Assembly: GCF_019278525.1 (NCBI RefSeq)
Contig: NZ_CP058986.1
Span: forward strand, 2,929,001 to 2,993,000
Length of the DNA: 64,000 nt
Direction of reading: 5' to 3'
DNA from: Polaribacter sp. HaHaR_3_91
Lineage (GTDB): Bacteria; Bacteroidota; Bacteroidia; Flavobacteriales; Flavobacteriaceae
The position numbers and the translations under genes were made by a program. This document shows positions 46,746-64,000 of the stretch, one piece after another. Under the pieces are notes generated by a model. The model saw nothing but the letters and a program-made list of their open reading frames with translations, was not told the origin of the DNA and did no database searches. The number at the start of each line of letters is the position of its first letter. Position 1 is the first letter of the stretch.

Positions 46746-46789
46746 GAAAATTTTTATTATATTTAACATAACTATTTTAAATCAAAAAT

Positions 46790-48778: not shown

Positions 48779-48808
48779 TTGCCAGTTTGTAAAATTCTAC
48801 TATATTTG
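48779..48808 (+). promoter_or_regulatory. Promoter of tRNA-Met
   Basis: TTG at 48779-48781, a 19-nt spacer and TATATTTG at 48801-48808 form a full consensus promoter 15 nt before the tRNA. Confidence 0.8.
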
Positions 48809-48823
48809 CAGCCTCAAAACAAT

Positions 48824-48897: not shown

Positions 48898-48920
48898 CTA
48901 TTTTAAATCAATAAAAAACA

Positions 48921-48948
48921 ACAGTTTAGGTCTCTAAACTGTTTTTTT
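48921..48948 (+). terminator. Terminator between tRNA-Met and the integrase
   Basis: ACAGTTTAG-GTCT-CTAAACTGT is a perfect 9-bp stem followed by seven T. The integrase ATG comes directly after it, so the integrase is poorly expressed from the tRNA transcript. Confidence 0.8.
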
Positions 48949-50418
48949 ATGCAATCAATTTACCATTACCTTACCCTAACAACAGAAATTGAACACGATT
49001 TTGAACACGATTCTAAAGTTTTAAACCTTTTTTCTTCCCCAAAAATCTATACAGCAAAAGGAGATTTATCTAAGCGATGGTACATCTATTTTTCCTTCAG
49101 AAATCCAAAAACAGGGAAATTGGAACGAATGGCAAATGTATATGGTAAAGTAAACCAATACAAAACCAAAGAGAATAGAATGAGCATCTTGTCTTCTTAT
49201 AGAAAAAACTTGTTGTTTTTACTAAAACAAGGCTTCAATCCTTTCATAGATAACTCCGAGTTGTATGAGCAGTTGAAAAATCACACTGTTGATATAGAAC
49301 TAGAAGAAACTCTTAAAGAAGAAGCAATATCTCCATCAAAAATAAACGAATCTGTAAAAAATGCTGTAAAGGAAGCCCTAGATGAAAATATGATTACTTC
49401 ACTTTTAGAAAATGTAATTCTAAAGGGAGACTTATCTAAAACAACCAAAAAACCTATAAAAAACAACCAAAAAGAAATTCACATAAAAGAACAAAATACT
49501 GGGAATAAGAATCAAGAAGAAATGTCTATTGTAAAAGCTTTTGACTTTGCGCTAAGCTTAAAAGAAAAGGCAGTAAGTAGTGGAACGATAAAAGATTATA
49601 AAAGAAAAGCAAAACTTTTTATTATTTGGATGGAAGAAACGCATCCAACCAAAAAGAATATAAGAGAAATTTCTAGAAAAGATTTATTAGATTATTTTAA
49701 TGGAATTGTTTTAAAAACAAGCGCAAGAAATCGTAATAATTACAGAACAGAATTAGGAAGTATCTTCCAAGTATTAAAAAATAATGAATTGGTTGCTGAA
49801 AACTATATTCAATCAATTCCTGTATTAAAATCCAAAACAGAAAGAAATAAGGTTTACACATTAAAAGAGCAACAAAATATATTTGAATATTTAGAAAAAC
49901 AAGATCAACTATTATTACTATTCATAAAATTCGTTTCTTATAGTTTCATTAGACCTATTGAGGTTTGTAGAATAAGAATTAAGGACATTAATTTAGAAAC
50001 TAAAACCGTTCAATTTAAGGCTAAGAATAGCCCTTTAAAAACAAAAATTATTCCTAGTATTTTATTTGATGAATTACCAGATTTATCAAAGTTAGATAAG
50101 GAATCCTTTTTATTTACTCCAGAAACAATTGGAGCTTTCTGGGATGCAAATGAAACTAATAGAAGAGATCATTTTTCTAAAAGATTTAGAAAAGTTGTAA
50201 AAGACCATTTTAAATTGAATGAAGATTATGGAATTTATAGTTTTAGACATACCTTTATCTCAAAATTATATAGAAAACTGAGAGAAAATGCTTCTCCTTT
50301 TGAAGCTAAGAGTAATTTAATGCTGATTACAGGACATAAATCAATGAGTGCATTGGAAAAATATTTAAGAGAAATTGATGCAGAGTTGCCAGAAGATTAC
50401 TCAAAATTATTTAAGTAA
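48949..50418 (+). CDS. Phage-type tyrosine recombinase (tRNA-associated integrase)
   Basis: The 489-residue protein has an N-terminal arm domain (RWYIYFSFRNPKTGKLER), a SAM-like core-binding domain (~195-290) and a catalytic domain. In that domain Arg335 (SFIRPIEVCR), Arg433 (YSFRHTF, with Tyr430 in place of the usual first His), His463 (TGHKSM) and nucleophile Tyr472 (EKYLRE) are visible. This type integrates elements into tRNA genes. The gene begins 52 bp after tRNA-Met, which marks the left edge of an island. Confidence 0.9.
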   Translation: MQSIYHYLTLTTEIEHDFEHDSKVLNLFSSPKIYTAKGDLSKRWYIYFSFRNPKTGKLERMANVYGKVNQYKTKENRMSILSSYRKNLLFLLKQGFNPFIDNSELYEQLKNHTVDIELEETLKEEAISPSKINESVKNAVKEALDENMITSLLENVILKGDLSKTTKKPIKNNQKEIHIKEQNTGNKNQEEMSIVKAFDFALSLKEKAVSSGTIKDYKRKAKLFIIWMEETHPTKKNIREISRKDLLDYFNGIVLKTSARNRNNYRTELGSIFQVLKNNELVAENYIQSIPVLKSKTERNKVYTLKEQQNIFEYLEKQDQLLLLFIKFVSYSFIRPIEVCRIRIKDINLETKTVQFKAKNSPLKTKIIPSILFDELPDLSKLDKESFLFTPETIGAFWDANETNRRDHFSKRFRKVVKDHFKLNEDYGIYSFRHTFISKLYRKLRENASPFEAKSNLMLITGHKSMSALEKYLREIDAELPEDYSKLFK

Positions 50419-50421
50419 AAA

Positions 50422-50712
50422 ATGAGCAAAGAAACTAGAAAAGTAAATGTAATTTATCAGGAGCTTAGAAAGAGGGTATTTTACCCTCTTTTACTTAATT
50501 CCCCAAAATTCTATTTCGAACACTTAATTGAACAAGTACAAATCTAACAAATAGAATGGGTGTTTGATGTTTTGATATTAGCAAGAAAGAAAATGGATAT
50601 TGTTTTTATTGATGATAAAGATGAATCACAAGAAATTTTAAATAAACGGAGTCTTTTAAACGAAAACTTGTTTGATTTAGTAGACTGTCAAATAGAACTC
50701 AAAACTAATTAA
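50422..50712 (+). pseudogene. Small gene interrupted by an in-frame stop
   Basis: An ATG at 50422 opens MSKETRKVNVIYQELRKR... for 41 codons to a TAA at 50545-50547. The same frame then continues without a stop through VFDVLILARKKMDIVFIDDKDE to 50712. Both halves read like protein, so a ~96-codon gene may have been broken by one nonsense change. No family is recognised. Alternatively the two parts are unrelated short frames. Confidence 0.35.
50471..50494 (+). terminator. Terminator-like hairpin after the integrase
   Basis: AGAGGGTA-TTT-TACCCTCT forms a perfect 8-bp stem followed by TTTAC. It lies inside the interrupted small frame, which argues that the frame may not be a functional gene. Confidence 0.5.
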
Positions 50713-51377
50713 TTTTTCTTTTTCACCTAAAAAACTGCTATAACAATACCCAATATGTTTCCTAATAATACTATTGCTTAGCTCGAACTCACTCTATTTA
50801 ACAACTTTTTTATAACTCCATAATAGTATAAAAATCAAGTGCAATTATTTTACATTGCCTATATTATGCGTTAATTATACGTAAAATTAACGCATAATTC
50901 AACTATAAATATACTTAAATTCATAATTATTTTTAATGAAAATAAAGAGTATTATATAGAACAAAAATTTAAACTAATGACTTTTCAAAGCATCTAACCC
51001 CACTCCTATCCCAAATAACATTAATGTAATACAAGTTTGTAATACAAAACTTGATTTGTGTTACAAGTATTTTATCAATCCATTTAAAGTATCTCCTCCA
51101 TATTTTGATAATGATTTTTCTTGGAAAAATCGAGATAATGTAACTAACTATAGTTTTACTCCCAATAAATACAAATCATTGCTTACAACTTACCATACAT
51201 TTAAATACAGAAGTATAATTTGATAATTAAGAAAAATATTTGAATTATCTAAAAAAGACATTGTATATATCTTTACATTACACTCGAATCAAAAATCGAC
51301 GAATTAAATCTATTAAAGCACAAAGCTACACACTTCTTATTTAGTTTATTTTCAATACATTAGATAATTATTTAGCT
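50713..51377. other. Gene-free AT-rich region before the second recombinase
   Basis: No credible gene is seen. It contains a strong 13-bp inverted repeat (50864-50897, listed separately) and a weaker one: TGTAATACAA (51025-51034) against TTGTGTTACA (51056-51065), 9 of 10 pairs, with an extra TAATACAA between. These could be regulatory or recombinase sites. Confidence 0.5.
50864..50897. repeat. 13-8-13 inverted repeat upstream of the IntI-like recombinase
   Basis: TTATGCGTTAATT (50864-50876) and AATTAACGCATAA (50885-50897) are perfect complements separated by 8 bp. The geometry resembles a tyrosine-recombinase core site, and it could also be an operator. It is the only long perfect palindrome in this gene-free stretch. 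Confidence 0.55.
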
Positions 51378-52493
51378 ATGAAATCTATTATTTTACTTCC
51401 TAACATTCATAAGGGTTCAAATATTGTTATGATTAATTTTCCTTTTGATCAGGAAATAAAAAATCATTTAAAATTATTACCCGAGGTACAATGGAGCCAA
51501 AATTTGAAATCTTTCTACATTAAAGATTCTTCAAGTAATAGGAGTTTATTATATAACCATATTCGACTAAAAAAATGGTTTGTTAATTATGAAAAACTTA
51601 AAAAAAAAGTTATACCTCCGTCAAAAGAAATCTACAAATTGGTCTTACCTGCTTTATCTATCTACTTAACTTCAGAATTAAAAAAGTTTAAAAGATGGTT
51701 GCAACAAAAAAGATTAAGTGAGAATACTGTTAATACTTATGTGGAAGTAACTGCATACTTTCTTCGTTATGGATTACTAAAAAAAAATGAAGATTATTCA
51801 ATAAAATTAATTGAACAGTTTAACTATGACTTTATATTTAGAGCAAACAGATCCGTATCCTATCAAAATCAATGCATTAATGGAATCAAAAAATTTCTTT
51901 TTTTTAAAGGTATAGAAATTAATTTATTAAATATTGAAAGACCTAAGAAAGAAAAGAAATTACCAGCAGTTTTAAGTGTTGCAGAAATTAAAGCCATATT
52001 TAATAATCTTACAAATCTAAAGCATAAAACATTATTAAGTCTTCTTTATTCTGGTGGACTCAGAATTGGGGAAGCATTAAATTTAAAAGTTGATGATATT
52101 GATAGCAAAAGAATGTTAATTCATATTAAGCAAGCTAAGGGAAAAAAAGACAGGTATACTTTGCTCTCGTATTCTTTTTTAATACTTCTTAGAGAGTACT
52201 ATTTAGCTTATAAACCTAAAGTTTTTCTTTTTGAAGGGCAAAATGGACATAAATACAGTGGTGCCAGTGCTCAAGCTGTGTTAAAAAAAGCATTGAAAAA
52301 TACTAAAATTACAAAAAAGGTTACATTACACACTTTAAGACACTCTTTTGCAACACATTTATTAGAAAATGGAACAGATATTAGGTATATACAAGAATTA
52401 TTAGGTCATAGTAGCCCAAAAACGACAATGATATATACTCATGTTACAAAAACTAGTCTTAAAAATATTAAAAATCCTTTTGATGAATTGTAG
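51378..52493 (+). CDS. IntI/Xer-like tyrosine recombinase, presumed integrase of the cassette array
   Basis: The 371-residue protein has an extra N-terminal module (~1-75; LKLLPEVQWSQNLKSFYIKD), a SAM-like domain (~95-180) and a catalytic domain. All six-type residues are present: Arg229 (GGLRIGE), Lys254-257 region (KQAKGKKDR), His318 and Arg321 (HTLRHSF), His344 (LLGHSS), Tyr353 (MIYTHV). The stretch from 270 to 318 is short and lacks the ~20-residue insertion that marks true IntI. The C-terminal end, NPFDEL, recalls the SPLD-L end of integron integrases. It points towards the array, with its 3' end adjacent. Confidence 0.85.
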   Translation: MKSIILLPNIHKGSNIVMINFPFDQEIKNHLKLLPEVQWSQNLKSFYIKDSSSNRSLLYNHIRLKKWFVNYEKLKKKVIPPSKEIYKLVLPALSIYLTSELKKFKRWLQQKRLSENTVNTYVEVTAYFLRYGLLKKNEDYSIKLIEQFNYDFIFRANRSVSYQNQCINGIKKFLFFKGIEINLLNIERPKKEKKLPAVLSVAEIKAIFNNLTNLKHKTLLSLLYSGGLRIGEALNLKVDDIDSKRMLIHIKQAKGKKDRYTLLSYSFLILLREYYLAYKPKVFLFEGQNGHKYSGASAQAVLKKALKNTKITKKVTLHTLRHSFATHLLENGTDIRYIQELLGHSSPKTTMIYTHVTKTSLKNIKNPFDEL

Positions 52494-52587
52494 GAATAAA
52501 TTACTTTTAAAGAATCATATTCAATGTATAAATATAATCATAAAACTTCAGCATATAAACCCAATTAAGAGATATATACTGATATAA

Positions 52588-52614
52588 CATAAGCATATAA
52601 ACAAGTTGCCAAAA
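52588..52614 (+). repeat. Candidate attI-like site or degenerate right-end core
   Basis: GCATATAAACAAGTTGCC (52593-52610) resembles the right arms of the cassette repeats, such as CATACAAAACAACGTTGCC, with GTTGCC at the expected crossover. It lies ~110 bp after the recombinase stop, where an attachment site would be expected. Confidence 0.4.
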
Positions 52615-52840
52615 ATTGCCCAAAACCAAGCAAAACGTTGGAAAAAAAACAATAAAACTTCTGAATTTCAAAATATTAGATACTGTCTCAATATTGAGGA
52701 ATTCTAAGAAATTTAGTTTGTTATAAAGATTACAATAGTTTGAAAATATTTAGATTCTTAAAATAAAGTTTGTGGAATATTCTATCAAACTCAAAATTTG
52801 AAAAAGGCGGAGAAATCTCATTTTTTTTTAAAATAAAAGA

Positions 52841-52987
52841 AACCACTCAAACGCTGAATTTCCAATTATTGCGGAATGAAAATCTTTGTGGAATTTTAAC
52901 TCAAACGAAAATTTAAAATATGGAAAAATCTCGTAAATCAAAACGTGAAAAACCACTCAAATGTTGAATTCCAAATATTGGCGGAAT
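52841..52987 (+). repeat. Decayed direct repeats
   Basis: AACCACTCAAACGCTGAATT (from 52841) and AACCACTCAAATGTTGAATT (from 52951) start two 37-bp copies that both end in GCGGAAT. They are spaced 110 bp apart, with further partial echoes (CACTCCAACGCT). They may be remnants of duplicated DNA. Confidence 0.5.
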
Positions 52988-53046
52988 TATCACTCCAACG
53001 CTAAATCTCGAAAATAATTACCTAACTCGGAAAAACAAAAAACAAC

Positions 53047-53187
53047 TTTAGGCAACACCGTGTAAAAAAAATTACTTATTTTTAGCTTTATCAAAGTTAG
53101 TTACATTTTTGTAAACTCCTATTTTCCTACGGAAAATAGCCGTTCACTTTAAACGTAACTTTCCTTAACACAAACACGTTGGCAATA
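53047..53187 (+). repeat. attC-like site 1
   Basis: The left core TTTAGGCAAC ends at 53056 and the right core GTTGGCAATA starts at 53178; AAC to GTT spans 127 bp. The tip hairpin is CTATTTTCC-TAC-GGAAAATAG (53119-53139). Inner arms AGTTAC (53099-53104) and GTAACT (53155-53160) pair. It is the most diverged of the seven. Confidence 0.75.
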
Positions 53188-53206
53188 ATTTAAAAAAAAT
53201 CTCGAA

Positions 53207-53803
53207 TTGAATAGAATAATAGGAATTTTATTGACAATTTCACTTCTGTTTTCTTGTAATAAAGAAAATAAAACATCAAATCCTTTAGTAATAAAATATC
53301 AAGAAAAAGGAGTTTCCTATCAAATGGAAAATAAGACTGATAGTGCTATTTTTTATTACAAAAAAGCTATAAAATTAGAACCAAATGAAATAGCAAGTAT
53401 AGAAAGTTTGGTGAAAATATATTGGCTAAATGAACAGCCTCAGTTAGCTTTAAAAGCTATAAATGAATTACCAAATAAAACTCAGAAAAGAAGTCCTATT
53501 CTTATTTTAGAAGGAATGACTCTTGAAAAAATGAATAGATTGAATGATGCTATGGAATTATATAAACAAGCGTATAATCTAATTACTGAAATTAAATATG
53601 AAAACGAAAAAAACATTATTGAATTTATTGGTTATTTAACTTTGCAAACTGTTATTGGGAAAAAGGAAAAATCCCTAAAAGAGTTTAAAAAGCTGAAAGA
53701 AAAAAAATTGACTGAAACTGAAAGACAATATGTTAATTTCATAGAACCAATTATTAGAAATTATAAAGGTGGTGGATATAATGGAATTTTAGGAAATGAA
53801 TAA
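53207..53803 (+). CDS. Cassette 1: TPR-repeat lipoprotein
   Basis: The 198-residue protein starts at TTG 53207, which alone gives a proper lipoprotein signal (NRIIGILLTISLLFSCNK). Residues ~30-130 hold TPR-like repeats (GVSYQMENKTDSAIFYYKKAIKLEPNE, GMTLEKMNRLNDAMELYKQAY). It probably scaffolds protein contacts at a membrane. The start lies 29 nt after GTT of site 1 and the stop 12 nt before AAC of site 2, so it fills its cassette. Confidence 0.75.
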   Translation: MNRIIGILLTISLLFSCNKENKTSNPLVIKYQEKGVSYQMENKTDSAIFYYKKAIKLEPNEIASIESLVKIYWLNEQPQLALKAINELPNKTQKRSPILILEGMTLEKMNRLNDAMELYKQAYNLITEIKYENEKNIIEFIGYLTLQTVIGKKEKSLKEFKKLKEKKLTETERQYVNFIEPIIRNYKGGGYNGILGNE

Positions 53804-53808
53804 AAAAC

Positions 53809-53948
53809 TATTGCCAACACCTTGTATAAAAAATTGCTATATTTAGCATAAACTAAAACTTGTTGCTTTTTTGCAAACTTCTGAATTTCCGCTGGAAATT
53901 CCTCGTTCACAAAATCGCAACTTTCCATACAAAACAACGTTGTAAACA
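53809..53948 (+). repeat. attC-like site 2
   Basis: The left core TATTGCCAAC ends at 53818 and the right core GTTGTAAAC starts at 53939; AAC to GTT is 126 bp. The tip is GAATTTCC-GCT-GGAAATTC (53883-53901), with outer arms TTGTAT (53822-53827) and ATACAA (53927-53932). It is nearly identical to site 6. Confidence 0.85.
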
Positions 53949-53970
53949 ATGCCCAAACTGACCGTTGAAA

Positions 53971-54315
53971 ATGAATTTAGACGAACTGACAAAAAATATT
54001 CGAAAAGTTTCCAAAGAAGAAATAGTTAAAAAATTAGCCGACAATATTCAAGAATGGAAAAAAGATGAAAGAAATGTTGTTGAATTAAGAAATAATGTTG
54101 AACGATTTATTGGAAATACGTGGATTGAAAAACAAACAGATTTTGACAAAATTTACGGAATGTGGACTGAATTTAGAAACTCTGCAATTGACGGAATTGG
54201 AGGAATGACAATTAATGAAAGACTTTACTGGTTTGGACTTTTTGATTTATTTGAAAACGCAAAAGATAACGTTGAACAAGATAAATACTACCAAAAATTA
54301 ATGGCGAAAAAATGA
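53971..54315 (+). CDS. Cassette 2, gene a: small protein of unknown function
   Basis: From the ATG at 53971 (MNLDELTKNIRKVSKEEIVKKL) the protein has 114 residues, mainly helical and charged, with no signal or membrane segment. A TTG 6 bp upstream is a less likely start. TWIEKQTDFDKIYGMWTEFRNSAIDGIGG is its most distinctive part. I recognise no family. Its stop overlaps the next gene's ATG by 4 bp, so the cassette is a coupled two-gene unit. Confidence 0.65.
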   Translation: MNLDELTKNIRKVSKEEIVKKLADNIQEWKKDERNVVELRNNVERFIGNTWIEKQTDFDKIYGMWTEFRNSAIDGIGGMTINERLYWFGLFDLFENAKDNVEQDKYYQKLMAKK

Positions 54316-54860
54316 AAATTAAAAAAGTAATTTTTGCTATTTTGACTTTACAAATAGGACTATATTTTCTTATTGGAGATTTTATGTTGGAAAAGGAATT
54401 ATTTAATGAATTTGAAGAATTTAGCAAAAGGAGATTAGCGAATGAATATAATGTTGAAAATGATACGATTTCAGAACGTTTTTATTTCACTTCTTGCGGA
54501 GATGAATTTTTTAGAAATAATGAAAAATTAGAAAATAAAGTTAGAAGCACAAATACAAAACGATATTACAATGCTGAAAAATATTTATTTATTGAAAAAT
54601 CGGAATATTATCAAAATACTCTTGAATTTTACTATGAGAAAGTAGATGAAGAAAATGAGACAAATTTAGTTAGATTTGGAGCTTGTAGAATTAGTGATAT
54701 TCCTTTTATATCAACAAAAATTGAATTGATTGAAAGTTTTTCAACTCATAAAGATTTTCACGCAATGCATTATAACGAACAAATGTTGGAATACAAAGTG
54801 AACTATATTTTGGTTATTTTTAAATGGGTGAGAATTAGTAAAAAAATTAAAAAGAATTGA
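54312..54860 (+). CDS. Cassette 2, gene b: membrane-anchored protein of unknown function
   Basis: The 182-residue protein has one N-terminal hydrophobic segment (VIFAILTLQIGLYFLIGDFML), an uncleaved signal anchor by appearance, then a polar extracytoplasmic domain (FYFTSCGDEFFRNNEK...RFGACRISDIPF). Two separated Cys may form a disulfide. It has no recognised family. It ends 19 nt before AAC of site 3. Confidence 0.62.
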   Translation: MKIKKVIFAILTLQIGLYFLIGDFMLEKELFNEFEEFSKRRLANEYNVENDTISERFYFTSCGDEFFRNNEKLENKVRSTNTKRYYNAEKYLFIEKSEYYQNTLEFYYEKVDEENETNLVRFGACRISDIPFISTKIELIESFSTHKDFHAMHYNEQMLEYKVNYILVIFKWVRISKKIKKN

Positions 54861-54872
54861 AATTAAAAGCAC

Positions 54873-55011
54873 AGTTTACAACACCGTGTATAATTAATTG
54901 CTTGGTTTTAGCCAATTTACGAAAGTCCTCGCGGACTTTCTATCTGTGATTTATTTACTAACTTTAGTGCTTAAAACACGCAACTAATCATACACAACAA
55001 CGTTATGCAAA
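54873..55011 (+). repeat. attC-like site 3
   Basis: The left core GTTTACAAC ends at 54882 and the right core GTTATGCAAA starts at 55002; AAC to GTT is 125 bp. The tip is GAAAGTCC-TCGC-GGACTTTC (54921-54940). The arms GTGTATAATTA and TAATCATACAC pair at 10 of 11. The block TTTAGTGCTTAA lies in the right half here (54963-54974), but in the left half of sites 4, 5 and 7. Confidence 0.85.
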
Positions 55012-55032
55012 ATGTAACAGAACGAAAACTCA

Positions 55033-55500
55033 ATGGAAGAACAAAAACCAAAATCAATTAAAACAATCGGACTTTTAGTCGCAATCTTTTCTGGATTTAT
55101 AATTTTCAGTAATGGAATGGGAGCTGTAGCTTGGTCTGTAATCGGAATGGGAGATGACTTAAATAATAATGAGACTGAAACTGACCCTATCTCTTTTCTT
55201 TTTTCTCACTATTTAGAAATGTGCCTCATAATGCTCTTAATCGGAATTGCTTATTTAATTGGCGGAATATTTATAAGAAAATATAAGTTATGGGCAAATA
55301 GAATGGTTAGTGGTTTATCAATCCTAATTTTTTTAATTATTTGGGGACTGATGATTGCTATGTCAATATCTGTTGGAAAACAAGATGGAATGGAAGCTTT
55401 TAGTTATGGTGCAATTTTGAATGCGTTTTTTTGGTCAACACCAATTGCTCTTTTAATTTGGTTCCTGAATAAGAAAAAAATAAAAAAACACTTTGCATAA
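55033..55500 (+). CDS. Cassette 3: small multi-pass membrane protein
   Basis: The 155-residue protein has four hydrophobic segments (TIGLLVAIFSGFIIFSNGMG, YLEMCLIMLLIGIAYLIGGIFI, MVSGLSILIFLIIWGLMIAMSI and GAILNAFFWSTPIALLIWFL) with short charged ends. Function is unknown. The stop codon TAA (55498-55500) is itself part of the left core of site 4, which shows how tightly the cassette is packed. Confidence 0.72.
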   Translation: MEEQKPKSIKTIGLLVAIFSGFIIFSNGMGAVAWSVIGMGDDLNNNETETDPISFLFSHYLEMCLIMLLIGIAYLIGGIFIRKYKLWANRMVSGLSILIFLIIWGLMIAMSISVGKQDGMEAFSYGAILNAFFWSTPIALLIWFLNKKKIKKHFA

Positions 55501-55630
55501 CACCGTATAAAAATAATTGCGGTTTAGTGCTTAATCAAAGGTCGTTGCGTGTTTGTAACGTCTGATTTTCCTTCGGAAAATCCTCGCATACAAACCCGCA
55601 ACTATTCTTATACATCAACGTTACCACCAA
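55492..55630 (+). repeat. attC-like site 4
   Basis: The left core TTTGCATAAC ends at 55501 and the right core GTTACCACCA starts at 55620; AAC to GTT is 124 bp. The tip is GATTTTCC-TTC-GGAAAATC (55564-55582), with arms TTGCGG (55517-55522) and CCGCAA (55596-55601). Confidence 0.85.
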
Positions 55631-55693
55631 TTACCAAAATGTACTTTCCTGAAATAGGTTGACTAAAAATTAAACACTTAATTATAGTCACTT

Positions 55694-56152
55694 ATGAAAA
55701 CACAAAAACAACCTTGGCGAAAAAAAACGTACGAAAAAGCAACTTTAGAACTCAAATTATTCGTCGTTGACCAAATTCAGAATGGACAGATTTCCACAAA
55801 CTTTGCTTCCAAAAAATATGATGTTCCTAGAACTACAATTGGGTATTGGATCAAAAAATATAGTACTTTAGTCCAACAAAATACAGGTATGAGTAAATTA
55901 GATGAGATTAAAAAACTAAAGGAACGTATTGAAGAATTGGAGTTTGTAAAGGAATTTCAACAAGATATTATTGCTGACATGGAAATCATTACTGGAGTCG
56001 ATTTGTCAAAAAAGTCGTTGCCCAAAACATTAGCGAAAGAGATAGAACTAAAAAAGAAAAACCGTTTAAAAGAAAATGGTTCTATGAGTGTTTTGGGATT
56101 AGTAAACAAGCTTTCTACAAAAGACTCAAAACCCAAGAAAACAAACGACTAA
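55694..56152 (+). CDS. IS3-family transposase OrfA (copy 1)
   Basis: The 152-residue protein has a helix-turn-helix (ATLELKLFVVDQIQNGQIST...YDVPRTTIGYWIKKYS) and a C-terminal leucine-zipper-like coiled coil (DEIKKLKERIEELEFVKEFQ). A slippery heptamer A-AAA-AAG at 56050-56056 allows a -1 frameshift into orfB, giving the fused transposase. Confidence 0.92.
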   Translation: MKTQKQPWRKKTYEKATLELKLFVVDQIQNGQISTNFASKKYDVPRTTIGYWIKKYSTLVQQNTGMSKLDEIKKLKERIEELEFVKEFQQDIIADMEIITGVDLSKKSLPKTLAKEIELKKKNRLKENGSMSVLGLVNKLSTKDSKPKKTND

Positions 56153-56172
56153 ACGATGAAAAAGTCATCGAA

Positions 56173-56946
56173 ATGATACAGGAATATCGAAAATTAGTTG
56201 GTATGAGAACTGGCGGAATTAAGTTATATGATGAACTTAAACAAGACTTTATAAAACAAGGTATTAAAATAGGTAGAGACAAGTTGTACGATGTGTTAAG
56301 GCTTCACAATTTACTTGTTCCTAGGCTTAAAAACTATGTAACAACAACAAACTCTAATCATCAATTTAGAAAATATAAAAACCTAATTAAAGACCAAGTT
56401 CCTACTCGACCAGAACAACTATGGGTAAGCGATATAACATACATTAAAACAGACAATGGACACAATTACCTAGCAATCGTTACAGATGCATATTCTAAGC
56501 AAATTATGGGCTATAAATTAGATAACAACATGAAGACATCACTTTGTTCAGAAGCGCTAGAAATGGCTATTAAAAATAGAAAATACCCTGATAAAAAATT
56601 AATACATCATTCTGACAGAGGTTTTCAATACTGTAACCCCAAATACACAGCATTTGCAGAAGAAAATGGCATAATGATGAGCATGACAGAACAATATGAT
56701 CCTTATGAAAACGCAATTGCAGAGCGAATTAATAGAACTTTAAAATATGAATATGGACTTAGAAATTGCATTAAAAACACTGCCATTGCTCAAGAAGTAA
56801 CAAAACAAGCAGTATATATTTACAACAATTTAAGAACCCATTTTAGCTTAGAATTAAGAAAACCAGCTGAAGTACATTTAAATCCAAACATCAAATACAA
56901 ATCATATCGAAGAAATAATGTAAATTTGACTGAACTAACAATTTGA
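56173..56946 (+). CDS. IS3-family transposase OrfB, DDE domain (copy 1)
   Basis: The first ATG of the frame gives 257 residues with the DDE triad Asp87 (WVSDITY), Asp148 (HHSDRGFQY) and Glu184 (NAIAERINRTLK); the 35-residue gap between the last two is the rKve-type spacing. Homology extends upstream in frame (CFGISKQAFYKRL) to the slippery site at 56050, so the native product is an OrfAB fusion made by -1 frameshifting. Confidence 0.93.
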   Translation: MIQEYRKLVGMRTGGIKLYDELKQDFIKQGIKIGRDKLYDVLRLHNLLVPRLKNYVTTTNSNHQFRKYKNLIKDQVPTRPEQLWVSDITYIKTDNGHNYLAIVTDAYSKQIMGYKLDNNMKTSLCSEALEMAIKNRKYPDKKLIHHSDRGFQYCNPKYTAFAEENGIMMSMTEQYDPYENAIAERINRTLKYEYGLRNCIKNTAIAQEVTKQAVYIYNNLRTHFSLELRKPAEVHLNPNIKYKSYRRNNVNLTELTI

Positions 56947-57055
56947 AAACAAAACTAGTTCAAAATATTTTTTGCCTTCTAAACGGCTAAAAAAATCTTT
57001 TGAACGGTATAAATTAACCTAAAAAAAGGTCAACCTATATCAGTATAATACAAAA

Positions 57056-57547
57056 ATGACTGAAAAACAAAATGAAATATGGAATAAAATTCAAAATTTT
57101 GAAATTGACGACATAGATTCTTCATTCAGTTTTACAGATAGATTAGCAAGAGAAAATGATTGGTCAATAGAATATTCACTGAGAACAGTATTGGAATACA
57201 AAAAATTTATTTTTCTGATTACTATTTCAGATTTCCCCCAAACACCTTCAGACCAAATTGACCAAGTCTGGCATCTTCATTTACTTTACACAGAATCATA
57301 TTGGATTGAACTTTGTAAAAACACAATAAATAAAAATATTCATCACGGACCAACAAAAGGCTCTGAGGAAAGAACTTTATTTAAAGAACAGTATTCAAAA
57401 ACACTTGATTTTTACGAGTTAATATTTAATGAAAAACCACCAAGTGACATTTGGGTTGATATTGACACTAGATTTAATGAGATTCACTTTACAAGAGTTA
57501 ATAGAAATAGAAATTGGATAATACCTAAACTACGATTTAAAAAGTAA
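57056..57547 (+). CDS. Cassette 4, gene a: glycine-rich-domain (DUF1399-like) protein
   Basis: The 163-residue protein contains FPQTPSDQIDQVWHLHLLYTESYWIELC, the hallmark P-S--ID-VWH-HLL-T--Y of the N-terminal domain of glycine-rich-domain-containing proteins (DUF1399). Function in bacteria is unknown. Its ATG begins 3 nt after the IS right end, with its A inside the target duplication, so the IS has separated the gene from its native leader but left the coding sequence whole. It is coupled by a 1-bp overlap to the Cys-rich protein gene. Confidence 0.75.
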   Translation: MTEKQNEIWNKIQNFEIDDIDSSFSFTDRLARENDWSIEYSLRTVLEYKKFIFLITISDFPQTPSDQIDQVWHLHLLYTESYWIELCKNTINKNIHHGPTKGSEERTLFKEQYSKTLDFYELIFNEKPPSDIWVDIDTRFNEIHFTRVNRNRNWIIPKLRFKK

Positions 57548-58365
57548 TGAAAATACTATCTCAAATAACACCTGCAGAAACAATGCTAATTAAAGATTGT
57601 ACCTCTGTACAATTGAAAGATTTAATGAAGTTTACTTTTATGGATTTACTTCTAAAAAAAGTAATTGAAATTAAAGAAATAAATAAAAAGTCTCATCCTA
57701 GAGACAACTACATTAGAACTTACACGTATGTTATTTCAGGTAAAAACTTTAATAAATACCAGCCAAAAAATCACGAATTAATTTATTTGAGTCCATTTAT
57801 AAAAAGTCCTTCAATTCAAATACTTTTTAAGAATTTTATAAAAATGGCTTACGACTCCTCAAACGGAGGCTGGAATTTTAAAAAATCGACAAGAAGTAAT
57901 CGAGAAATCAACCCTTATTTTAAGCAATCATTCTTGTTGAATTTATTTAGGTTAAATAAACTAACTGACAACGGAAACAAACTAAGGAGAGAAATATCTA
58001 ACTATTTAAATGAGGTTGATAAAAGTATAGACCATTTGCTTCATAATGATAAGAAGAAAGGATTAGAGTTATTATTGAGAATTGGAGGAAACATTTTCCT
58101 ATTAAAGAACTTAGATTTTCAACTTTTAAAAACAATTGATAAAGAATTACTAAATCAACAGAAAGTTTTATATAGTGATACTTATGATTCTGATAGTGAT
58201 TGGTGGTTATATGTTGACTTTTTTGAAGACGATTATATGTTTGATTCATATTTTGATAGTTTTGATGACACTTTAGATTCATTTGATTCTGAATTTGATG
58301 CATCTGGTTGCTCTTCTTGTGACAGTGGATGTAGTAGTTGCGGTGGTTGTGGCGGATGTGATTAA
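57547..58365 (+). CDS. Cassette 4, gene b: acidic, Cys-rich-tailed protein (TIGR04222-like partner)
   Basis: The 272-residue protein has a helical body (~1-200) with no clear membrane segment. A strongly acidic aromatic stretch follows (YDSDSDWWLYVDFFEDDYMFDSYFDSFDD), then a tail with eight Cys in ~20 residues (SGCSSCDSGCSSCGGC and onward). Such Gly/Cys-rich tails are known from TIGR04222 proteins found next to glycine-rich-domain genes. The pairing supports a joint function, possibly metal binding or a processed peptide. Both ideas are inferred. Confidence 0.6.
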   Translation: MKILSQITPAETMLIKDCTSVQLKDLMKFTFMDLLLKKVIEIKEINKKSHPRDNYIRTYTYVISGKNFNKYQPKNHELIYLSPFIKSPSIQILFKNFIKMAYDSSNGGWNFKKSTRSNREINPYFKQSFLLNLFRLNKLTDNGNKLRREISNYLNEVDKSIDHLLHNDKKKGLELLLRIGGNIFLLKNLDFQLLKTIDKELLNQQKVLYSDTYDSDSDWWLYVDFFEDDYMFDSYFDSFDDTLDSFDSEFDASGCSSCDSGCSSCGGCGGCD

Positions 58366-58368
58366 AAA

Positions 58369-58508
58369 CTGGTGGTAACATCGCATAAAAATAATGCGTA
58401 GATTAGTGCTTAAACAAAGAACAGTGCTTTTTTGCTACTTCTGATTTTCCTGCGGAAAATCCTCGCACACAAAAACGCACTATTCTTATACGTAACCGTT
58501 GGCAATAA
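58369..58508 (+). repeat. attC-like site 5
   Basis: The left core TGGTGGTAAC ends at 58379 and the right core GTTGGCAATA starts at 58498; AAC to GTT is 124 bp. The tip is GATTTTCC-TGC-GGAAAATC (58443-58461). The arms AATGCGT and ACGCACT pair at 6 of 7. Confidence 0.85.
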
Positions 58509-58571
58509 TTTAAAAAATGTACTTTCCTGAAATAGGTTGACTAAAAATTAAACACTTAATTATAGTCACTT

Positions 58572-59030
58572 ATGAAAACACAAAAACAACCTTGGCGAAA
58601 AAAAACGTACGAAAAAGCAACTTTAGAACTCAAATTATTCGTCGTTGACCAAATTCAGAATGGACAGATTTCCACAAACTTTGCTTCCAAAAAATATGAT
58701 GTTCCTAGAACTACAATTGGGTATTGGATCAAAAAATATAGTACTTTAGTCCAACAAAATACAGGTATGAGTAAATTAGATGAGATTAAAAAACTAAAGG
58801 AACGTATTGAAGAATTGGAGTTTGTAAAGGAATTTCAACAAGATATTATTGCTGACATGGAAATCATTACTGGAGTCGATTTGTCAAAAAAGTCGTTGCC
58901 CAAAACATTAGCGAAAGAGATAGAACTAAAAAAGAAAAACCGTTTAAAAGAAAATGGTTCTATGAGTGTTTTGGGATTAGTAAACAAGCTTTCTACAAAA
59001 GACTCAAAACCCAAGAAAACAAACGACTAA
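58572..59030 (+). CDS. IS3-family transposase OrfA (copy 2)
   Basis: The translated product is identical to OrfA of copy 1 (152 residues). The frameshift heptamer A-AAA-AAG lies at 58928-58934. Confidence 0.92.
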   Translation: MKTQKQPWRKKTYEKATLELKLFVVDQIQNGQISTNFASKKYDVPRTTIGYWIKKYSTLVQQNTGMSKLDEIKKLKERIEELEFVKEFQQDIIADMEIITGVDLSKKSLPKTLAKEIELKKKNRLKENGSMSVLGLVNKLSTKDSKPKKTND

Positions 59031-59050
59031 ACGATGAAAAAGTCATCGAA

Positions 59051-59824
59051 ATGATACAGGAATATCGAAAATTAGTTGGTATGAGAACTGGCGGAATTAA
59101 GTTATATGATGAACTTAAACAAGACTTTATAAAACAAGGTATTAAAATAGGTAGAGACAAGTTGTACGATGTGTTAAGGCTTCACAATTTACTTGTTCCT
59201 AGGCTTAAAAACTATGTAACAACAACAAACTCTAATCATCAATTTAGAAAATATAAAAACCTAATTAAAGACCAAGTTCCTACTCGACCAGAACAACTAT
59301 GGGTAAGCGATATAACATACATTAAAACAGACAATGGACACAATTACCTAGCAATCGTTACAGATGCATATTCTAAGCAAATTATGGGCTATAAATTAGA
59401 TAACAACATGAAGACATCACTTTGTTCAGAAGCGCTAGAAATGGCTATTAAAAATAGAAAATACCCTGATAAAAAATTAATACATCATTCTGACAGAGGT
59501 TTTCAATACTGTAACCCCAAATACACAGCATTTGCAGAAGAAAATGGCATAATGATGAGCATGACAGAACAATATGATCCTTATGAAAACGCAATTGCAG
59601 AGCGAATTAATAGAACTTTAAAATATGAATATGGACTTAGAAATTGCATTAAAAACACTGCCATTGCTCAAGAAGTAACAAAACAAGCAGTATATATTTA
59701 CAACAATTTAAGAACCCATTTTAGCTTAGAATTAAGAAAACCAGCTGAAGTACATTTAAATCCAAACATCAAATACAAATCATATCGAAGAAATAATGTA
59801 AATTTGACTGAACTAACAATTTGA
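59051..59824 (+). CDS. IS3-family transposase OrfB, DDE domain (copy 2)
   Basis: The product is identical to OrfB of copy 1, with the DDE triad intact. The element appears competent for transposition. Confidence 0.93.
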   Translation: MIQEYRKLVGMRTGGIKLYDELKQDFIKQGIKIGRDKLYDVLRLHNLLVPRLKNYVTTTNSNHQFRKYKNLIKDQVPTRPEQLWVSDITYIKTDNGHNYLAIVTDAYSKQIMGYKLDNNMKTSLCSEALEMAIKNRKYPDKKLIHHSDRGFQYCNPKYTAFAEENGIMMSMTEQYDPYENAIAERINRTLKYEYGLRNCIKNTAIAQEVTKQAVYIYNNLRTHFSLELRKPAEVHLNPNIKYKSYRRNNVNLTELTI

Positions 59825-59968
59825 AAACAAAACTAGTTCAAAATATTTTTTGCCTTCTAAACGGCTAAAAAAATCTTTTGAACGGTATAAATTAACCTAA
59901 AAAAAGGTCAACCTATATCAGTATAATACAAAAACGCTAGTAAAACTAAAAAATTAACAAACTAAAAA

Positions 59969-61522
59969 ATGAGCTTATTTAAGAGATTGTCACCTGAATA
60001 TAATTCAAATCAAAATAATACAACTGCAAACTTTTTTATTGGAACACCAGAAGCTGAAGGAGAAACTACATTAAACTCAAAAATAAAGTTAGCAGAAATG
60101 TTTGGAGATTATTTGAATATTTTTCCTGAATTAGATAGTGAAAAATTTATTATAACAGGTAGAAAAGGTTCTGGAAAATCAGCAATAGCAGAGTATATAT
60201 ATTATACAGCACAAAACGATGCTAACTCCTTTTGCAGTTTCATTAAAACAAGAGATTTTGATAGTAATAAAATAGTTCAACTAGGAAAAGAAGCAGGTTT
60301 TCCTATCGAAGAAAAATTACTTTTTGAGTGGTTAATTTTAACAAAACTAATTTCCTTATTGACAGAAGATCAATCAGTAAATGATATTAAGTCATATAAA
60401 GATTTAAAAATATTTTTGCAAAGGAATTCTGGACTAGTTGATATAAAAAGTTATGAAATAAAAGAAATTGTAAGAGAACAGTCATTTGAGGTTAATATTG
60501 AATATTTAAAACGAGTTTTTTCTGCATTATTTAATAGAAAAATTGGAATTAAAGAACACAAAGCTCCATTCTATAAAATACTACAACCTTTAAAAGAAGT
60601 AGTCCTTAAACTATTAAAAGAAAATATAGGCTCAGGAAATGAATTCTATTTAATATTTGATGATTTAGATATAGGTTTTAAAGAAAACAATAAAAAAACT
60701 GTTGAAAATATAACAAATATTTTGAGAGTTGCCAAAGATTATAATATTGATTATTTTGGAAAAGAAGGTCTTAAAGCAAAAGTGATAATTCTTTTAAGAG
60801 ATGACTTGAAAAGAATTATTGTAAAACATAATGCAGATACAGCAAAACTATTCTCTTCTTATGAAATTCCTCTAATTTGGTATGAACATGATAAGTTTAG
60901 AAATGATGAAAATTCTGTAGGTCTAAAAAAACTAATAAATAAAAGAATTTCTTTAAACTTTGAAAAGAAAGGAATTGATTATGATAAAAATGATTCTTGG
61001 AATTCTTTATTCAAAAATGAATATCAATATTCAGGTAGTAGTTTTAAACATTTAATTGACTATACATTTTTTAGACCAAGAGATTTAATTCTACTGCTAA
61101 AACCCTTACCAAGAAATTCTTATGACATTCCTATAAAATTCTATAATGCGAAAAGTTTAATTAAATCTTTTGTAGAAGAATTAATTCTTGAGGTAAAAAA
61201 CGAATTATCTGCAAGTTTTAATGAAGAGGATATAACTAAAATTTTTCTTGCTCTAAAGAACTTAAAAAAAAATCAACCACTTGACAAAGTAGATTTAATA
61301 AATGAATTTTCAAACGTAAATTTAGAATACGATAAAGAATTGGCATTAATATTACTATTCGAATATAGTATATTAGGAAATATTGACAATGATGATTATT
61401 CTTCAACAAAAATTTACTTTAAACATCGTGAAAAATTAGATGAACCTTGCATACCTAACTTCGATATGAAATTTATTTATCATAAAGCTATTGAAGAATA
61501 TTTAGATAAACGTGAAAAATAA
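59969..61522 (+). CDS. Cassette 5: P-loop ATPase of the Sll1717 type
   Basis: The 517-residue protein has Walker A GRKGSGKS (~65-72) and a Walker-B-like YLIFDDLDIGF (~230), then VIILLRDDLKRII and an RPRDLI motif (~355). The C-terminal half is helical. This fits the Sll1717-family P-loop ATPases, STAND/AAA-like proteins of uncertain role that often occur in accessory or defence loci. No nuclease or other effector domain is obvious in it. It starts 38 nt after the IS and ends 8 nt before AAC of site 6. Confidence 0.75.
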   Translation: MSLFKRLSPEYNSNQNNTTANFFIGTPEAEGETTLNSKIKLAEMFGDYLNIFPELDSEKFIITGRKGSGKSAIAEYIYYTAQNDANSFCSFIKTRDFDSNKIVQLGKEAGFPIEEKLLFEWLILTKLISLLTEDQSVNDIKSYKDLKIFLQRNSGLVDIKSYEIKEIVREQSFEVNIEYLKRVFSALFNRKIGIKEHKAPFYKILQPLKEVVLKLLKENIGSGNEFYLIFDDLDIGFKENNKKTVENITNILRVAKDYNIDYFGKEGLKAKVIILLRDDLKRIIVKHNADTAKLFSSYEIPLIWYEHDKFRNDENSVGLKKLINKRISLNFEKKGIDYDKNDSWNSLFKNEYQYSGSSFKHLIDYTFFRPRDLILLLKPLPRNSYDIPIKFYNAKSLIKSFVEELILEVKNELSASFNEEDITKIFLALKNLKKNQPLDKVDLINEFSNVNLEYDKELALILLFEYSILGNIDNDDYSSTKIYFKHREKLDEPCIPNFDMKFIYHKAIEEYLDKREK

Positions 61523-61664
61523 CTACCACCAACACCTTGTATAAAAAATTGCTATATTTAGCTTAATTTAAAACTAGTCGCTTTTTTGCAAACTTCTGAA
61601 TTTCCGCTGGAAATTCCTCGTTCACAAAATCGCAACTTTCCATACAAAACAACGTTGCCATTAA
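61522..61664 (+). repeat. attC-like site 6
   Basis: The left core CTACCACCAAC ends at 61533 and the right core GTTGCCATTA starts at 61654; AAC to GTT is 126 bp. The tip is GAATTTCC-GCT-GGAAATTC (61598-61616). It differs from site 2 only at a few positions of the left arm. Its left core does not match the start of cassette 5. Confidence 0.85.
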
Positions 61665-61692
61665 TACGAAAACTCAAACCTTGAATTAGAAA

Positions 61693-61887
61693 ATGGAAGA
61701 ATTTGACATATTTGCTATTTTATTTATTGCTTTCGGAATTTACTGTGCGATTGGTTTGAAAAAAGATTATGCTGATTACAAAAAATCAAATCATTATTTA
61801 GAATACAATATTTACATTAGAAATATAGGAGTTGTTGTTGGAGGTATAATTATGTTCTTTTATGAACTTTCAAGATTATTTTCCTAA
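61693..61887 (+). CDS. Cassette 6: 64-residue membrane protein
   Basis: The short protein MEEFDIFAILFIAFGIYCAIG... has two hydrophobic segments (~6-22 and ~45-61) around a polar loop with DYADYKKS. It starts 39 nt after GTT, as other cassette genes do. Function is unknown. The remaining ~240 bp of the cassette hold no clear gene. Confidence 0.55.
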   Translation: MEEFDIFAILFIAFGIYCAIGLKKDYADYKKSNHYLEYNIYIRNIGVVVGGIIMFFYELSRLFS

Positions 61888-62125
61888 TCATTAAAATAAC
61901 AAGTTTAAAGCATAAAAAACTTAATTTGAATTAAGCAACGTGGAATTTACTACTCAAGTAATGAAAAAAAATAGAAAACGGAACTGAATAAAAAAACTTT
62001 CCGACTTCTACTCTTTGGGAAAAATATGAATCGGAATTTAAACAAGTTTGAATAAATTAAAAACGGAGAAAAACATATGCTTCGGAAAAAAGAAAACGGA
62101 ATGATTTCTATGTAAAAAAAAAGTA

Positions 62126-62267
62126 CTAATGGCAACAACGTGTATAAAAAATTGCGTAGTTTAGTGCTTAACCAAAGGTAGTTGCATTTTTGTTGCGTCT
62201 GATTTTCCTTCGGAAAATCCTCGCACACAAAACCGCAACTTTCCATACACAAACACGTTACCTGCAA
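62126..62267 (+). repeat. attC-like site 7
   Basis: The left core CTAATGGCAAC ends at 62136 and the right core GTTACCTGC starts at 62257; AAC to GTT is 126 bp. The tip is GATTTTCC-TTC-GGAAAATC (62201-62219). GTGTAT and ATACAC form the outer arms. Confidence 0.85.
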
Positions 62268-62292
62268 GCTAAAAAAACATCGAGAATAAAAT

Positions 62293-64000
62293 ATGATTGA
62301 ATCAATTCTATTAAAAAATATTGCTTCGTATGACCAAAATGGAATTGAAATTTCCAATTTAAAGAAAGTCAATTTTTTCTTTGGAGCAAACGGCTCAGGA
62401 AAATCAACGATTGCAAAATATTTTCACAATTTAAGTAAAAACCCAATTGACAGAATTTCTGATTTCAATGATTGTAGTAATAATGGTTACGACCAAACAA
62501 ATCATCAAATATTAGTTTATGATGAGAATTTCATTGATTTCAACTTTAATAGAAATTCAGTTTTAAAAGGTGTTTTTTCATTAAATCAAACCAACGATAC
62601 TATTGATAGGGAAATAAGCACAAAACAATCCGAAATAGAAACTATAAGAGTAAGTACAGAAAGAAAACAATCTTTAAAACAAAGGATAGAAAGTAACAAA
62701 AGACAGAAAAAAATAGAATTACTAGATTTTTGCTGGGCTAAAAGAAACAATTTCTCTTCGTTCTCTAAATTAAATTTAGGTTTTTCAGGAAGTAAGCAGA
62801 ATCATCTTCAACAACTAAAAACAATTCTTGTAAATCTTCCTAGTACAATTTCTTCAATGTCTGAATTATCAACTAGCTATAATGAACTTTATGAAAAAGA
62901 GATTTTAGAAATTCAAACTACAATAAGTTCTAGTTTATATAAGGAAATTCGACAGTTAGAATCAGAATTAAAACCACTAATTTCAGAAATTATTGTAGGA
63001 AATGAAGATGTTAATATTGATGGACTAATAAAATCACTTAATTCTAGAAGTTGGGTAGAAACTGGAGTGAATTTTCTTAATGAAGTTGACACTACTTGTC
63101 CTTTTTGTCAAAAGGAAACTATTGACGAAAACCTAAGAACACAATTTAATCAATATTTTGATAAAACTTCAAAACAACAAATCGAACTAATTGAAAATTT
63201 ATACACCCAATACAAAACTAAAACTACTTTATTTTTAGAAAATGTTTTAGAGATACAGAGTATATTTAATCCGAATAATATTGTTTCTAACTCTTATATT
63301 CAATTGCAAGAATTATTTGCCAGAAATAATAATGAAATTGATTTGAAAATTAAAAACTCAAATGAAAAAAAAGATATAATTTCCATAAACACACTGAAAG
63401 AATCTTTATCAACAATTATTAATTTAATCAAAACAAATAACAAAGCTTTACTTGAACTTGACCAAAATAAAAGAAATCTTATTTCTAGAATTTGGGCATA
63501 TTTGGCAGAAAAAAGTAAAACAAAAATTGCAGAATTTGAGGTTAAAGAAATTAAATATCAAAAAATTGATACTCTAGCTAATCAAATAATCGCTGATTAC
63601 AACACAAATAGTTTAACTCTTAAGCGACAAATTGAAGTATTAAGAAGTCAAACAGTAAATACTCAAGACGCAGTTGAGAATATCAATTTAATTTTAAAAA
63701 ATTCAGGTTTTGAAAGTTTTGAAATTAAAGAAAAAGATTTAGTTAATAATATTTCACAATATTATTTAAAAAGACCAAATACAACAACGGAAGACCCTAT
63801 TTTCAAAACACTAAGCGAAGGTGAAAAAAGTTTTATTTCATTCTTATATTTTTATCAATTATGTATAGGAACCGATGATATAACTAACAATAGTAGTAAA
63901 AGAAAAATCATAGTTATTGATGATCCTGTGTCTAGTCTTGATAGTCAAGCATTATTTGTGATTTCTTCTTTAATTCATCAGTTAATACTTAGAAAAGGAA
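62293..64000 (+). CDS. Cassette 7: AAA_13 / RloC-like zinc-hook ATPase (partial)
   Basis: The frame opens at 62293, 36 nt after GTT of site 7, and stays open to the window end (569 residues). Walker A is GANGSGKS (31-38). A long coiled coil carries a Rad50-type hook C269-P-F-C272 near its middle. Then come the ABC signature LSEGEK (507-512) and Walker B IIVIDDPVSSLD (from 539). This is the layout of AAA_13 proteins such as RloC, a DNA-damage-responsive anticodon nuclease. The nuclease part, if any, lies outside the window. An antiviral role is inferred. Confidence 0.8.
   Translation, partial: MIESILLKNIASYDQNGIEISNLKKVNFFFGANGSGKSTIAKYFHNLSKNPIDRISDFNDCSNNGYDQTNHQILVYDENFIDFNFNRNSVLKGVFSLNQTNDTIDREISTKQSEIETIRVSTERKQSLKQRIESNKRQKKIELLDFCWAKRNNFSSFSKLNLGFSGSKQNHLQQLKTILVNLPSTISSMSELSTSYNELYEKEILEIQTTISSSLYKEIRQLESELKPLISEIIVGNEDVNIDGLIKSLNSRSWVETGVNFLNEVDTTCPFCQKETIDENLRTQFNQYFDKTSKQQIELIENLYTQYKTKTTLFLENVLEIQSIFNPNNIVSNSYIQLQELFARNNNEIDLKIKNSNEKKDIISINTLKESLSTIINLIKTNNKALLELDQNKRNLISRIWAYLAEKSKTKIAEFEVKEIKYQKIDTLANQIIADYNTNSLTLKRQIEVLRSQTVNTQDAVENINLILKNSGFESFEIKEKDLVNNISQYYLKRPNTTTEDPIFKTLSEGEKSFISFLYFYQLCIGTDDITNNSSKRKIIVIDDPVSSLDSQALFVISSLIHQLILRKG

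Follow-up and report, generated by a model that had tools for sequence, protein, structure and literature searches.

The window analyzed here, a 64-kb stretch of DNA (C1:2929001-2993000) from the 4.21-Mb single-contig genome of Polaribacter sp. HaHaR_3_91 (family Flavobacteriaceae), contains a tyrosine recombinase gene followed by a one-directional array of gene cassettes separated by attC-like sites. A first-pass annotation had read the region as a non-canonical integron. We re-found its seven repeats, all on the + strand and 124-127 bp long from AAC to GTT, and confirmed that compact, co-oriented genes lie between them, 3' of a full-length recombinase gene (51378-52493). A further property of the array had gone unnoticed: the two ends of a cassette are complementary to each other. 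Each cassette starts with GTT and six bases (N6) that vary between cassettes, and ends, just before the AAC of the next site, in the reverse complement of its own N6. The features of the array, with the number of complementary end positions for each cassette, are listed below (ORF, open reading frame; IS, insertion sequence; all on the + strand).

51378-52493, +: XerA-like tyrosine recombinase of 371 amino acids (aa) (Pfam PF00589, 133 bits)
52494-52607, +: attI-like region, delimited by the end of homology and a TATA..AGTT motif; insertion point at GTT 52605-52607, core ATAAACAAGTT
52605-53056, +: cassette 0, no + strand ORF of at least 50 aa; ends match at 5 of 6 positions (by eye)
53054-53180, +: attC-like site 1
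53178-53818, +: cassette 1, TPR-repeat ORF 53207-53803; ends 6 of 6
53816-53941, +: attC-like site 2
53939-54882, +: cassette 2, ORFs 53965-54315 and 54312-54860 of no convincing family; ends 6 of 6
54880-55004, +: attC-like site 3, with a different central hairpin
55002-55501, +: cassette 3, hydrophobic ORF 55033-55500 (by eye); ends 6 of 6
55499-55622, +: attC-like site 4
55620-58379, +: cassette 4, ORFs 57056-57547 and 57547-58365, split by an IS; ends 6 of 6
55640-57052, +: IS3-family element copy 1, 1413 bp, 20 nt past the GTT start
58377-58500, +: attC-like site 5
58498-61533, +: cassette 5, Sll1717-family ATPase 59969-61522; ends 3 of 6, no match
58518-59930, +: IS3-family element copy 2, again 20 nt past GTT
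61531-61656, +: attC-like site 6
61654-62136, +: cassette 6, small hydrophobic ORF 61693-61887 (by eye); ends 6 of 6
62134-62259, +: attC-like site 7
62257-64000, +: cassette 7, running past the window; 759-aa PDC-S06-type candidate defense protein from 62293

The right cores of the seven sites (GTTGGCA, GTTGTAA, GTTATGC, GTTACCA, GTTGGCA, GTTGCCA and GTTACCT) all depart from GTTRRRY, as first reported, and this consensus is fitted by 6 of 56 sites elsewhere in the genome. The central hairpin described for all seven is of the TTTCC/GGAAA type in six of them; site 3 carries another hairpin. The first cassette, which starts at 52605, had not been listed. The array is broken up by two copies of one IS3-family element and extends at least 8.7 kb beyond the window end at C1:2993000 (to a site at C1:3001547-3001671). 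The mismatched ends of cassette 5 perhaps reflect rearrangement through the IS copies. The start of cassette 7 agrees with the next site found past the window at 0 of 6 positions, and a site between the two may have been overlooked. Of 46 intervals examined, 31 had matching ends, contained no IS recognizable by its exact left end and encoded an ORF of 60 aa or more; the longest ORF pointed forward in 29 of these.

The complementarity of cassette ends holds well beyond the window. Requiring agreement at five or more of the six positions, 309 of 381 pairs of neighboring sites matched in four sets, which overlap in genomes (e.g., different arrays of G006, G014, G061 and G145). In the source genome, 38 of the 46 pairs closer than 8 kb matched, against a maximum of 12 in 20,000 shuffles. 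Twenty recombinase loci gave 106 matches in 141 pairs (maximum of 20 in 5,000 shuffles), nine named multi-site loci gave 30 in 34 (maximum 11 in 5,000), and the 19 of 20 further array loci that had usable pairs gave 135 in 160 (maximum 22 in 5,000). The left and right arms within one site matched in 4 of 56, 10 of 160 and 18 of 180 sites of the source genome, the 20 loci and the further array loci, respectively.

The pairing continues past N6. Position 7 mostly pairs, position 8 is not Watson-Crick, and positions 9-11 mostly pair again. In 210 of 242 matching pairs (two sets), the top strand carries an A on the right side and a C on the left side at position 8. Because this places a G opposite a T on the bottom strand, where the two can form a wobble pair, the bottom-strand stem runs through without a break and the top-strand stem is interrupted. 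Homologous cassettes offer a view of how the ends evolve. Among 378 cassettes we identified 44 homologous full-length pairs, of which 31 keep the same word at both ends and 13 differ. In nine of these 13 the two ends are altered together and both members are complementary at 6 of 6 positions. These nine pairs go back to roughly four independent events, some of which altered three bases together, and the cassettes are otherwise 67-90% identical. Since ends that lie hundreds of bases apart change together, they seem to be paired in some intermediate, the obvious one being a circular cassette.

To describe the sites themselves, we built a covariance model from 21 sites of the source genome, including the seven of the window. 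The consensus hairpin has 23 pairs, 12 of which show changes on both sides. At E <= 0.01 the genome contains at least 61 sites (150 of 6481 first-look candidates were scored), among which the 21 training sites match by construction. They form the window array, an array behind a second, frame-broken recombinase copy, several groups with no close recombinase homolog nearby, and singletons. An Rfam scan of window positions 45000-64000 returned tRNA only, and the single site queried had no match in the phage and plasmid collections.

The first-pass annotation had named, as support for its reading, many arrays fitting one model beside homologs of the 51378 recombinase, and such arrays were found. 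All 160 sites at the 20 recombinase loci are downstream of the recombinase and on its strand; among 80 named loci the model placed 65 sites in 21 loci, again all 65 downstream and on the same strand (one genome seems to be common to both sets). This bears on the possibility that the repeats are dispersed elements or terminators, such as miniature inverted-repeat transposable elements or repetitive extragenic palindromes, that merely happen to lie between genes. Some single copies are indeed scattered in the genome, yet the cassette-specific complementary ends, the GTT boundaries and the linkage of strand and position to the recombinase make such an origin scarcely credible.

Several comparisons define where cassettes enter the array. 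The attI-like site lies about 110 nt past the recombinase stop codon. Homology between the window and four Polaribacter loci spans the recombinase and ends at GTT 52605-52607, beyond which the cassettes are different; the second recombinase copy in the source genome diverges at the same boundary. A scan for the end rule alone, independent of the site model, detected a link (a pair of matching cassette ends) in 36 of 60 named loci examined. In 26 of these, the first core is 48-142 nt past the recombinase stop; TATA shortly precedes AGTT in 22 of the 26, nine of which read exactly ATAAACAAGTT. Furthermore, cassette content varies between relatives, as expected of a gene-capture array: six related loci, compared between species, share the recombinase-attI module and site DNA with the window and no cassette DNA was found in common, although some have little downstream sequence. 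Cassettes also recur as units. Cassette 4 has an identical full-length copy farther along the same array, past the window and between other neighbors, and the identity ends 2 bases past GTT on the left side and 1 base past on the right side. Whole GTT-to-AAC cassettes of 678 bp (93% identity), 585 bp (86.5%) and 3.7 kb (90%) are common to different genomes.

These results can be set against two other views of the array. In the first, N6/7 is not an integron R-box but the crossover (overlap) of a double-stranded tyrosine recombinase site, whose inner arm would read ...AACAACGTT and whose outer arm AAT/AAG..., and cassettes move as in coupling-sequence elements. N6/7 is nearly free in sequence, has an overlap-like length and is flanked by conserved bases on both sides, and tyrosine recombinases as a group accept any overlap as long as its partner has a matching one. 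However, the site body forms a conserved hairpin with covarying pairs, and the first cassettes at six aligned attI copies have no common N6. The two N6 copies in a cassette are, moreover, inverted and neighbors mostly differ, so a homologous double-stranded partner is lacking. We thus consider an overlap unlikely. The second view holds that the array is a fossil, its recombinase lost or inactive in the lineage and its present variation the work of IS elements and homologous recombination. The second recombinase copy, which is in two reading-frame pieces, the many IS copies, and two of 22 pattern-found sites that lack a GTT end agree with decay. But the recombinase copy of the window has its full length and the catalytic motifs that were sought, identical cassettes occur in different contexts, and first cassettes differ behind near-identical attI copies. 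On balance, a fossil array is quite improbable.

The recombinase has an extra N-terminal domain (residues ~1-76), a core-binding domain and a catalytic domain, and its closest relatives in our genome collection are Polaribacter proteins that are 79-82% identical. The window protein scored 208.3 bits against the XerA-type model NF040815 (cut-off of 220) and 192 bits against the integron integrase model TIGR02249 (cut-off of 265), the latter searched with the window protein only. Sequence comparison and the Foldseek list both place archaeal XerA and XerC-like proteins first among its relatives of solved structure, followed by IntI4. From the catalytic lysine motif to HxLRH the spacing is 64 in the window recombinase and 64-70 in 50 of 50 aligned rows (from two alignments that both include the window protein and probably share one other genome), as compared with 68 in XerA (5hxy) and 107 in IntI4. 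This difference from IntI4 indicates that the IntI additional domain is absent; indeed, the alignment to 2a3v falls into two parts around the absent segment. A degenerate but otherwise ordinary IntI integron could account for the AAC/GTT ends, the hairpin, attI, the one-directional cassettes and the presence of IntI4 among the best solved relatives. The motif spacing, the TIGR02249 score below cut-off and the archaeal XerA/XerC-like affinities speak against it, as do the sites: both R-box consensuses (RYYYAAC and GTTRRRY) are present in 6 of 396 sites, and we rate such an integron as very unlikely. The sequence RRRY follows the right core in 30 of the 396; the base directly after the core is a purine in 389. 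A TIGR02249 search at E 1e-60 found no match in 149 genomes of the family, but control genomes were equally silent, so we make no claim that IntI is absent.

The N-terminal domain is present in the aligned Bacteroidota relatives and was predicted with a mean local confidence (pLDDT) of 83.8 in the full model and 87.4 as a separate domain. A sequence search against solved structures gave chance-level matches only, and Foldseek gave nothing at E <= 0.001; its top matches were YciH (0.097), XPB helicase (0.31) and, at rank 6, the HARP substrate-recognition domain of SMARCAL1 (0.46). HARP and the N-terminal part of XPB recognize branched or damaged DNA. One of 27 members of the domain family matched Pfam HARP (E of 0.0022), and eight of the 27 (alignment A6) weakly matched Pfam DUF5710 (best E of 0.00018). 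The second recombinase copy (G000:C1:3037282-3038396, L010), in its two reading-frame pieces, is 97-98% identical to the window copy and is followed by a different array of its own. Just upstream of the system, another tyrosine recombinase gene (48949-50418) adjoins a tRNA (48824-48897) and is perhaps the integrase of a separate element.

The system is widespread in the family. Sites are present in 116 of 149 genomes, and at thresholds of E <= 1e-50 for the recombinase and E <= 1e-4 for the sites, 91 genomes have both, 9 have the recombinase without sites, 25 have sites without the recombinase and 24 have neither (Fisher p of 1e-7). In a sample of the phylum, 28 of 296 genomes carry a site, 13 of them outside the family. 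Many recombinase matches in family genomes lie at most a few kb from the start of a contig, and sites are spread along the length of several short contigs (e.g., L265, L267-L272). The repeats seem to break draft assemblies, which may have made arrays look smaller than they are.

Because the site model is biased toward the family, we applied the model-free end-rule scan to 78 of the 80 named loci (66 with enough downstream sequence), requiring the A/G pair at position 8. It returned 57 links in 17 loci whose recombinases are 53-82% relatives and 53 links in 33 loci with ~33-53% relatives, including Chitinophaga, Pedobacter, Belliella, Solitalea and Saprospiraceae; some of these links repeat one word. 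One mononucleotide shuffle per locus gave 0 links in both groups, and 412 kb of upstream sequence gave 3. Sixteen Xer-like loci from the candidate phyla radiation (CPR) and archaea yielded 1 link, as did their shuffle. When position 8 was left free and positions 9-11 were required, the A/G pair was there in 49 of 49 and 47 of 48 links. Shuffles and upstream stretches served as controls for the scan with position 8 imposed, in which the reverse strand bears on no more than the direction of the A/G pair. When position 8 is free, the reverse strand is no control, because an inverted pair reads on both strands. In three of four distant Bacteroidota loci (L169, L174 and L177; none in L187), repeats that clearly differ in sequence were observed behind the recombinase, and several site families probably exist in the phylum.

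Folding was predicted for 38 sites, and in all 38 the bottom strand is predicted to fold better than the top strand. We compared each site as it stands in the array with its circle form, in which the cassette end, the site and the cassette's own start are joined. The mean predicted bottom-strand energy was -26.8 kcal/mol for the circle form, -20.5 for the array form and -20.6 with random cassette starts. The circle form was the more stable in 35 of 38 sites, by a mean of 6.4 kcal/mol, and 17 circle-form sites had a mean z-score of about -6.7 relative to mononucleotide shuffles. In the source genome, 9 of 10 readable samples below 2.2 Mb have a positive GC skew, and 8 of 9 beyond that point have a negative one. 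This places the bottom strand on the lagging-strand template for 59 of 61 sites, with one further exception besides, although clustered sites are not independent. The 11 sites looked at in G014, which has a clear skew, agree; the skew of G131, G125 and G368 is too weak to orient sites.

Comparison of loci and genomes establishes an attI insertion point, cassettes that extend as units from GTT to AAC, their sharing between genomes, their co-orientation with the recombinase and a covarying hairpin. On this evidence, which is drawn from sequence, the locus is very probably an integron-like gene-capture platform of Bacteroidota, in which a XerA-like recombinase would capture circular cassettes at the attI-like AGTT via a folded single-strand site. 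The recombinase would integrate the circle at attI through its folded strand, most likely the bottom one. The cassette ends would pair only in the circle, where the R-box would form a continuous stem of GTT, N6/7, the G.T pair and about 3 bp. After integration, the right half would belong to the next cassette and the stem would be mostly broken beyond GTT. An R-box stem that is whole in the circle and broken in the array would make circles good substrates and stored cassettes poor ones, so capture would be favored and excision disfavored. Position 8 may mark the bottom strand as the folding strand, and the variable R-box could be read by its shape, possibly with help from the HARP/XPB-like N-terminal domain. 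If mispaired R-boxes already dampen excision, we speculate that the exposed orientation on the lagging-strand template may be tolerable.

Several points weigh against this interpretation. Recombination is deduced here from the comparison of sequences. Among the 381 neighboring pairs, 72 lack a match, which may reflect overlooked sites, rearrangement or decay; cassette 5 is the case in the window. The nine concerted pairs were counted after demanding complementarity of both members, and the other four of the 13 differing pairs all involve cassette L118_17052, whose ends are unmatched. The linkage to the recombinase also has gaps: one of the 20 recombinase loci has no site within 20 kb, 59 of the 80 named loci have none by the model, 25 of the 149 genomes carry sites with no recombinase match at the threshold, 9 of the 149 have a recombinase with no sites, and the family genus g128 mostly lacks sites. 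The fold energies come from a DNA model with 15-nt flanks and are silent on which strand is cut, and the advantage of the bottom strand is owed partly to G.T pairs. The likeness of the predicted N-terminal domain to HARP/XPB is weak and serves as a lead. Finally, the R-box of a classical integron is also complementary in the circle, within a short fixed consensus. Compared with it, the sites described here have given up the consensus and kept the pairing.

A broader proposal goes further and is more tentative; we hold it to be possible, though not probable. Under it, the Bacteroidota arrays would be a second, independently assembled and widespread class of integron, whose XerA-like recombinase gained a HARP/XPB-type branched-DNA domain instead of the IntI additional domain. 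Its sites would be switched by topology, with circles integrating efficiently and stored cassettes largely locked. The wobble at position 8 would pick the strand, and repair across the circle hairpin would copy one end onto the other to keep them in register.

The system can be placed among known elements by its likenesses and differences. As in classical integrons, including the sedentary chromosomal integrons of Vibrio, a tyrosine recombinase is associated with a one-directional array and insertion at the GTT of attI; the sites are imperfect AAC...GTT hairpins with a bottom strand predicted to be more stable, and cassettes are common to different genomes. Unlike IntI, the recombinase has no additional domain and carries a different N-terminal one. 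Unlike the RYYY/RRRY outer R-box of classical attC, the R-box here has a cassette-specific N6/7, a conserved position 8 and about 3 further pairs. The recombinase gene is, also unlike the classical arrangement, co-directional with the array. The first-pass reading of a non-canonical integron thus stands as to integron-like function and falls as to membership in the IntI/attC family: the system appears to work like an integron yet departs from that family in two defining features, the domains of the recombinase and the consensus of the R-box. Archaeal XerA/XerC-like recombinases (PDB 5hxy and 4a8e) are the best solved relatives and have a similar motif spacing, but the extra N-terminal domain and the cassette arrays are features of the present system, and the CPR/archaeal Xer-like loci had links at shuffle level. 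Xer/dif gene modules are flanked by short dif sites of about 28 bp, in contrast to hairpins of 124-127 bp. IS1111-attC elements are insertion sequences that target attC. The element in our arrays resembles them in inserting at attC-type sites and differs in belonging to the IS3 family and in lying 20 nt downstream of the core.

All 12 copies of this IS3-family element recognized by an exact left end in the fetched genome stretches start exactly 20 nt past the GTT start, in site orientation. They occupy about 10 different cassette contexts, two being duplicated cassettes; besides the two copies of the window, they lie in L008, L009, L010, L068, L069 and L070. The seven copies with both ends (1413 bp) are flanked by 3-bp direct repeats, AAA in six (with A-rich flanks) and TCA in one. 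From its position, the element looks to target these recombination sites. Among the cassette products, the 759-aa protein of cassette 7 (complete as L007:16293-18572) matches PDC-S06 of PADLOC with 613 bits and is a candidate antiphage protein. The product of the gene at 59969-61522 in cassette 5 is a Sll1717-family P-loop ATPase (267 bits) that weakly resembles mad8.

Integrons have some record in the phylum. Reviews list Bacteroidota among the integron-bearing phyla (PMC8618304, PMC9668308), and a passage of the IntegronFinder 2.0 paper names just one complete integron for Bacteroidetes proper, in Salinibacter ruber M1 (PMC9024848). The taxon-specific attC models cover 11 taxa, none of them Bacteroidota (PMC8352920). 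Two attC sites have been predicted in the Polaribacter phage P12002L, and one of the two was active with IntI1 (PMC9892861). Sedentary chromosomal integrons are reported to lie the opposite way to the sites of our two clear-skew genomes (PMC11023631). No description of the present system was found in the searchable full-text literature, which leaves preprints and most subscription papers outside its reach. With a different recombinase and different sites, the system is likely to be missed by the usual integron search rules.

If our interpretation is true, most sampled genera of the family (115 of 148 in the tally) carry sites that searches for IntI and RYYYAAC/GTTRRRY likely miss, and candidate antiphage genes would be among the overlooked cassettes. 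Folded single-strand cassette capture would then not need IntI. Pairing of the R-box in the circle only would provide a testable switch, with cassettes that are mobile as circles and stable in arrays.

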